Positions 17,940 to 27,255 of a stretch of 40,608 bases of DNA are shown one piece after another. The notes beneath the pieces are model-generated. The model worked only from the letters and a program-made list of their open reading frames with translations, was not told where the DNA came from and searched no databases. This stretch comes from Campylobacteraceae bacterium. GTDB taxonomy: Bacteria; Campylobacterota; Campylobacteria; Campylobacterales; Sulfurovaceae. The position numbers and the translations under genes are program-made. Location: the NCBI GenBank assembly GCA_027056485.1, contig JALUKQ010000026.1:1-40608 (forward strand), given 5' to 3'. The first letter of the stretch is position 1; each line of letters opens with the position of its first letter.

Positions 17940-18308
17940 ATGGCAACAACTAAAGAAGACGTTTTAGAATTTATCTCAAATATGTCAGTACTTGAGCTTT
18001 CTGAGCTTGTAAAAGAATTTGAAGAGCATTTTGGTGTATCTGCACAAGCTACAGTAGTAGCAGGTGGTGGAGCAGTAGCAGAAGCAGCTGAGGAAAAAAC
18101 AGAATTTGACGTAGTACTTACAGATGCAGGTGCTAAGAAAATTAATGCTATTAAAGTAGTAAGAGCTATTACTGGTCTTGGGCTTAAAGAAGCTAAAGCA
18201 GCAGTTGAAGAAGCTCCAACAACTCTTAAAGAAGCTGTTTCAAAAGAAGAAGCTGAAGAGTTCAAAAAACAAATTGAAGAAGCTGGTGCTTCTTGTGAAC
18301 TTAAATAG
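17940..18308 (+). CDS. rplL: 50S ribosomal protein L7/L12
   Basis: [39 protein letters not shown]. Confidence 0.99.
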
Positions 18309-18326: not shown

Positions 18327-18355
18327 ATTTCAAATGAGCTTTGCTCATTTGAAAT
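18327..18355 (+). terminator. 13-bp perfect hairpin in the rplL-rpoB gap (attenuator/processing candidate)
   Basis: ATTTCAAATGAGC-TTT-GCTCATTTGAAAT. Confidence 0.6.
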
Positions 18356-18378
18356 ATTAAAATATTTCAACTCTTTCT

Positions 18379-18435
18379 TCTACTGCATTAGTAACAGTAG
18401 ATTATAACTCTTGTGCTGCATTAGTAACAGTACAA
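18379..18435 (+). repeat. Two tandem 17-nt direct repeats (CTGCATTAGTAACAGTA), each inside a small hairpin, 33-bp period
   Basis: Copies at 18383-18399 and 18416-18432; hairpins 18379-18401 and 18411-18435. Confidence 0.9.
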
Positions 18436-18482
18436 AATCAAAAAACCATTATCAATTATAATTTATTTTAGATTTACTGATG

Positions 18483-18505
18483 AGCTATTGCGCAATAGTT
18501 TTTTT
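18483..18505 (+). terminator. Intrinsic-terminator/attenuator-like hairpin upstream of rpoB
   Basis: AGCTATT-GCGC-AATAGTT followed by TTTTT. Confidence 0.5.
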
Positions 18506-18547
18506 GTATATCTATACATTCATATTAACATAAACATACTATAATAA

Positions 18548-27255
<8,708 letters not shown>

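Follow-up and report, generated by a model that had tools for sequence, protein, structure and literature searches.

Conserved structured RNAs preceding rpoB are known from other bacteria. The Lacto-rpoB motif (RF01709) of Lactobacillales is listed in a survey as a likely cis-regulatory element (PMC2864571); like it, the hairpins described here are structured RNA ahead of rpoB, though in an unrelated lineage. The RF01709 model at its gathering cut-off of 40 bits gave matches in 0 of 34 genomes of the genus studied here, while the best sub-threshold matches (E of at least 0.16) were off the rpoB contigs and a Lactococcus lactis control was positive; by model score, the hairpin is not homologous to Lacto-rpoB. 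In E. coli, rpoBC has its own autogenous control, separate from that of rplJL (PMC10931766). The gene order and the place of the junction are the same there, and expression of rpoBC is uncoupled from that of rplJL. To our knowledge, no hairpin with the loop considered below has been described at the E. coli junction, whereas here it is occupied by one or two loop-conserved hairpins and a family-wide helix. Finally, HK022 put and lambda nut boxB are, like the hairpins here, short nascent RNA hairpins, acting 5' of termination signals. The put RNA is about 70 nt long, with two long stem-loops and a triplex (PMC9378689), while the elements considered here are 23 nt each, may be single and have no phage context; the boxA core CTCTTT of lambda and rrn nut-type sites is not conserved here, the general part of the flank being only YCYU.

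The window, i.e. the whole analyzed stretch of 40,608 nucleotides, carries the genes rplK, rplA, rplJ, rplL 5' of the spacer and rpoB, rpoC, rpsL, rpsG 3' of it. The features of the locus are as follows.

17940..18308, forward strand: rplL (ribosomal protein L7/L12), the gene 5' of the element (TIGR00855 L12, E=2.5e-44).
18327..18355, forward strand: rplL-proximal perfect hairpin, 13 bp with a 3-nt loop and no U-run after it (inverted repeat; -15.2 kcal/mol, z -5.7), probably an rplL 3' end or attenuator structure.
18376..18379, forward strand: pyrimidine flank YCYU 5' of HP1, its last U pairing with A18401.
18379..18401, forward strand: HP1, 7-bp stem UCUACUG/CAGUAGA, loop CAUUAGUAA at 18386-18394; in 20 of 29 genomes, stem near-invariant in sequence.
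18402..18408, forward strand: TTATA core between HP1 and HP2 (TATAAC, -10-like), in two-copy genomes.
18412..18434, forward strand: HP2, 7-bp stem (8 with U18411-A18435), loop CAUUAGUAA at 18419-18427; fully paired in 29 of 29 genomes, stem covarying.
18471..18512, forward strand: imperfect helix GATTTACTGATGAGCTATT-GCGC-AATAGTTTTTTTGTATATC with its internal mismatches kept (model R2 match, E=4.3e-9; pair counts).
18557..22720, forward strand: rpoB (RNA polymerase beta), followed by rpoC (TIGR02013 rpoB, 1720.8 bits).

The two hairpins between rplL and rpoB had been reported in an earlier note, and the sequences and coordinates given there agree exactly with the window, as do the identity of the 9-nt loops (both CATTAGTAA) and the stem differences between HP1 and HP2, namely a C:G pair swapped to G:C and an A:U pair changed to G.U. 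The 33-base offset between the copies is exact in the window but is not conserved in relatives: among the 20 genomes with two hairpins, the start-to-start spacing is 33 in 13 genomes, 34 in five and 49 in two. The 15-base core CTGCATTAGTAACAG is found, with zero mismatches, only at these two sites of the 2.48 Mb assembly. The predicted folding energies are -7.2 kcal/mol for HP1 and -8.1 kcal/mol for HP2 (z about -2.6 relative to shuffles), and the whole rplL-rpoB spacer folds better than 200 of 200 shuffles (z -3.8). Given the two window copies alone, a chance duplication would be conceivable; it is excluded, as relatives keep paired hairpins, and thus the hairpin pair is not a chance occurrence.

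The rplL-rpoB spacers were retrieved, anchored on rpoB, from the window genome and 29 genomes of the same genus, and the spacer of G016 was fetched separately, making 31 readable spacers; the uninformative genomes were G012 and G018 (no rpoB match) and G005 (contig beginning inside rpoB). The genus is one group of sulfur-oxidising marine bacteria related to Sulfurovum. The alignment to relatives proposed in the earlier note bears the element out, with hairpins in 29 of the 31 spacers: two in 20 genomes, one in nine. In the remaining two, G016 and G030, rpoB still stands behind an rplL-rpoB spacer lacking the hairpins, which shows that some species can do without the element. One hairpin of a pair can also lose its loop, as HP1 in L029 and HP2 in L033, the partner hairpin being intact in each case. 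The TTATA between the hairpins is 90-100% conserved in the 20 two-copy genomes, while neither TATA nor TTATA was found in the spacers of the nine one-copy genomes.

Several spacers, not all of this genus, contain other repeats or structures. In that of G030 (L047) a GC-rich, MITE-like inverted repeat starting with GTAGGGTGGTGC occupies the place of the hairpins, and the L216 spacer has a repeat of the GTAGGGTG type resembling it. Spacers L029 and L230, from two different genera, share a repeat (CTACGCTAACGCTGAGTTAA...) right after rplL (the exact 20-mer was tested), which is probably a mobile repeat. In L032 and L041 a 16-base insertion (e.g. AAACCTATGCTCAGG) separates HP1 from HP2, breaking the spacing and leaving both hairpins intact. 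By inspection, most spacers of the genus have hairpins comparable to the one at 18327-18355, with the sequence changed and the hairpin kept.

The 49 hairpins from 29 genomes comprise 26 distinct ones, and in this distinct set 99.5% of stem cells are paired and six of the seven stem pairs are altered on both sides, as illustrated by ACAUAG-CAUUAGUAA-CUAUGU, GUGUUG-CAUUAGUAA-CAACAC and CUGUUA-UGUUAGUAA-UAACAG. The covariation score of the distinct hairpins is 0.653; with shuffled partners it is 0.286, and with slid partners it does not exceed 0.161. As shuffles ignore kinship, a tree-aware null was built, in which the parsimony changes of each column were redistributed on an rpoB tree in 2000 simulations (several deep branches of this tree are weakly supported), HP2 being treated as the orthologue of the single hairpin of one-copy species. 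The covariation proposed for checking in the earlier note is clear in HP2: the paired fraction is 1.000 (29 genomes, all seven pairs kept) against a null mean of 0.825 and maximum of 0.980, and the summed G is 104.8 against 9.9 +/- 6.3 (maximum 43), neither value being reached in any of the 2000 simulations. Six pairs of HP2 are individually significant (p<=0.01). The stem of HP1 is invariant except for three G.U cells and one mismatch in the outermost pair, and, hardly varying, it has no covariation of its own in this test; across 20 genomes it hardly changes in sequence, and neither does the following TTATA (18379-18408 together), in contrast to the drifting stem of HP2.

The wobble cells in the stems are 22 G.U on the rpoB-sense strand and zero A.C, with one other cell being a U.U mismatch. 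Since only G.U and never A.C is seen, the molecule is RNA, and its strand is fixed as rpoB-sense. Conservation over the 49 copies is 94-100% at loop positions 2 to 9; in the 5' flank, the 26 distinct hairpins all have C in column 2, which precedes the outermost U-A pair by two bases, and U in column 4. Taken as comparative evidence, the covariation and the wobble pattern show that the rpoB-sense transcript folds into HP1 and HP2, and the alignment shows selection on the fold and on the loop (Y)AUUAGUAA, with the sequence of the HP2 stem left free. The conserved loop, compensating stem and fixed gene context are those of protein-binding cis-regulatory mRNA hairpins in general. The initial suggestion of a repeated RNA hairpin with a recognition-type loop before rpoB is strongly supported.

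Two other explanations for the loop were tried and rejected. Mimicry of rRNA found no counterpart, as the 16S and 23S rRNA of one family member contain no CATTAGTAA hairpin (three genus assemblies gave no rRNA match, so this rejection is not final). The end of a leader peptide at tandem stops (the loop reads UAG-UAA) was discarded, as no conserved reading frame enters the loop.

Of the 34 genus genomes, 29 gave strong matches to a covariance model of the hairpin (R1, E<=1e-4), in every case in the rplL-rpoB spacer, and no convincing second site was seen in these 34 genomes (the next best match has E=0.0086). Nothing credible was found outside the genus in 175 family genomes, and no hairpin was found in plasmids. 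A scan of 84,980 species yielded 69 stretches, which upon rescoring with R1 separated into strong matches of 36 to 49 bits and a chance-like remainder; the contigs of the former are labelled Sulfurovum, Campylobacteraceae, Campylobacterales, Epsilonproteobacteria and one marine-biofilm MAG, the latter match being the same locus as in one of the genus genomes. Candidate targets elsewhere were rejected, being weak matches (E of at least 0.004) away from rpoB; of two checked for open reading frames, one is within a frame and one is intergenic in another genus. A lone intergenic hairpin-like GTATTAGTAAC at about 1505-1530 of L186 (G180), in another genus and not near rpoB (E=0.004), is probably due to chance. 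As far as the genome scans reach, the element is used at rpoB only and in one Sulfurovum-type genus only.

At the gathering threshold, Rfam 15 has no match in the window, nor in the window locus together with six relatives, and at a relaxed E-value nothing credible was found in the spacer. The earlier statement that no element of this form had been described therefore holds with respect to Rfam 15 and the searched literature, in which subscription journals were thinly covered. The hairpin belongs to a known kind of RNA and makes a new family within it, one whose composite architecture is unusual.

A second structure, beyond the hairpins of the earlier note, stands between HP2 and rpoB (18471-18512). 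Nineteen pairs make up this imperfect helix, whose 3' arm is rich in U. Its model R2 has matches in 33 of the 35 Sulfurovaceae sampled and in none of 294 Campylobacterales outside that family; the position of the helix before rpoB in the family comes from the spacers that were read. Three mismatched positions are retained in most sequences. As its covariation is modest, the helix is supported by conservation and pairing more than by compensation. Its apex in the genera g3, g4, g27, g28 and g30 bears a hairpin with ACAUUU(U)CAUACC, and in g26 and g31 a hairpin with YYAAUAUUUACG (AGAG-...-CUCU in both cases), while in the window genus it is mostly a bare GCGC or GUGC loop, and HP1 and HP2 stand 5' of the helix. 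We conjecture that HP1 and HP2 functionally replace the apical module of other genera. The undescribed helix is possibly a more important element than the hairpins.

In broad terms, the hairpins very probably act as a switch or docking site, new at the RNA level, through which the amount of RNA polymerase made by the cell is set. In our best reading, the rplL-rpoB spacer serves rpoBC as a structured cis-regulatory mRNA leader, with a hairpin loop that would dock a protein, possibly RNA polymerase itself. Feedback control of rpoBC through a protein bound to the hairpins is a serious possibility, if somewhat short of an even chance. A trans-acting RNA-binding protein would recognise the loop, with two copies providing avidity, and its binding would signal that beta/beta' or polymerase is sufficient, lowering the expression of rpoBC compared with that of the ribosomal protein genes 5' of it. 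The route could be an altered passage through the downstream helix, or processing at it; direct masking of the ribosome site is disfavoured, since the last loop ends 85-154 nt before the rpoB start codon across genomes. Control of beta/beta' synthesis is the natural reading, as the hairpin is restricted to rpoB, and the polymerase subunits or complex themselves are the most likely ligand (autogenous control), since no second genomic target was found. The compensatory stem with a fixed loop, sense-strand G.U, the constant place before rpoB as the sole target, the spare copy remaining intact and the adjoining independent, family-wide rpoB-linked structure all fit a leader, judging from sequence comparison. 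Against it count the restriction to one genus, not tied here to a polymerase feature, and the lack of hairpins in G016 and G030; moreover, recognition of the loop only would leave HP1 unexplained, because its stem is sequence-locked.

Other readings explain parts of the same evidence. In cis antitermination, the nascent hairpins would bind the transcribing polymerase (as HK022 put RNA) or load Nus factors (as boxA/boxB), with readthrough into rpoBC past the downstream helix. Agreeing with this are the position of two hairpins in tandem before a U-rich helix, the short conserved run of pyrimidines that flanks each hairpin on its 5' side, and the precedent of put, whose two stem-loops act on the zinc-binding domain of beta' (PMC9378689). 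We nevertheless consider it unlikely, as a single copy is enough in nine genomes, the flank does not conserve boxA-like CTCTTT (CCCTTT, CTCTTG and CTCCTTG occur), the put RNA differs in size and architecture, and the U-run of the downstream helix is preceded by no more than a weak AU-rich stem, with 20-30 nt inserted at the helix apex in relatives. Similarly doubtful is a role in RNA processing or stability, the hairpins serving as a mark for, or a block to, the ribonuclease (III, E, J or Y) that separates the rplJL and rpoBC parts of the transcript. In its favour, the spacer has conserved structures including the 19-pair imperfect helix, of RNase III-like size, and the title of Barry 1980 reportedly names processing, along with attenuation, for the rplJL-rpoBC transcript of E. 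coli; on the other side, a fixed 9-nt loop is not usually required at ribonuclease sites, and the 7-bp stems of the hairpins are short for RNase III.

Pairing of the loop with a small RNA or with the ribosome-binding region of rpoB (UACUAAU) seems very improbable. In eight of 29 genomes TACTAAT or TACTAA, complementary to 6-7 loop bases, is located close 5' of the ribosome site, but in the other 21 complementarity is no greater than in shuffled spacers. Tandem DNA operators three helical turns apart, the alternative raised in the earlier note, or an rpoB promoter, have hardly a better chance, despite the sequence conservation of HP1 and the following TTATA in 20 two-copy genomes and the spacing of 33-34 in most. 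Operators would have conserved arms and a fixed helical spacing; here the arms of HP2 drift with compensation around a fixed non-palindromic centre, the wobbles are solely G.U, and the variable spacing (33, 34 or 49) argues against phased sites. As for a promoter, the TTATA core of the -10-like TATAAC is indeed conserved in two-copy genomes but is absent from one-copy spacers, and a promoter scan gave no sigma-70-like site in the hairpin region.

Returning to the leader of rpoBC, its two structures might form a Sulfurovaceae-specific two-part regulator of RNA polymerase synthesis, a speculative scheme to which we assign a low probability. It would comprise the family-wide helix and an exchangeable sensing module that RNA polymerase or its beta/beta' subunits would read directly; depending on the genus, this module would be an apical hairpin with loop ACAUUUCAUACC or with YYAAUAUUUACG, or, in the window genus, one or two free-standing CAUUAGUAA hairpins moved out of the helix. 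The element adds an undescribed structured RNA, with a family-wide neighbour, to a lineage with little RNA annotation. How the synthesis of beta/beta' is matched to need is an old question in bacteria, and a hairpin with a fixed loop, at a single gene, with natural one-copy, two-copy and lost-copy relatives, may serve as a short RNA bait for finding the sensor.
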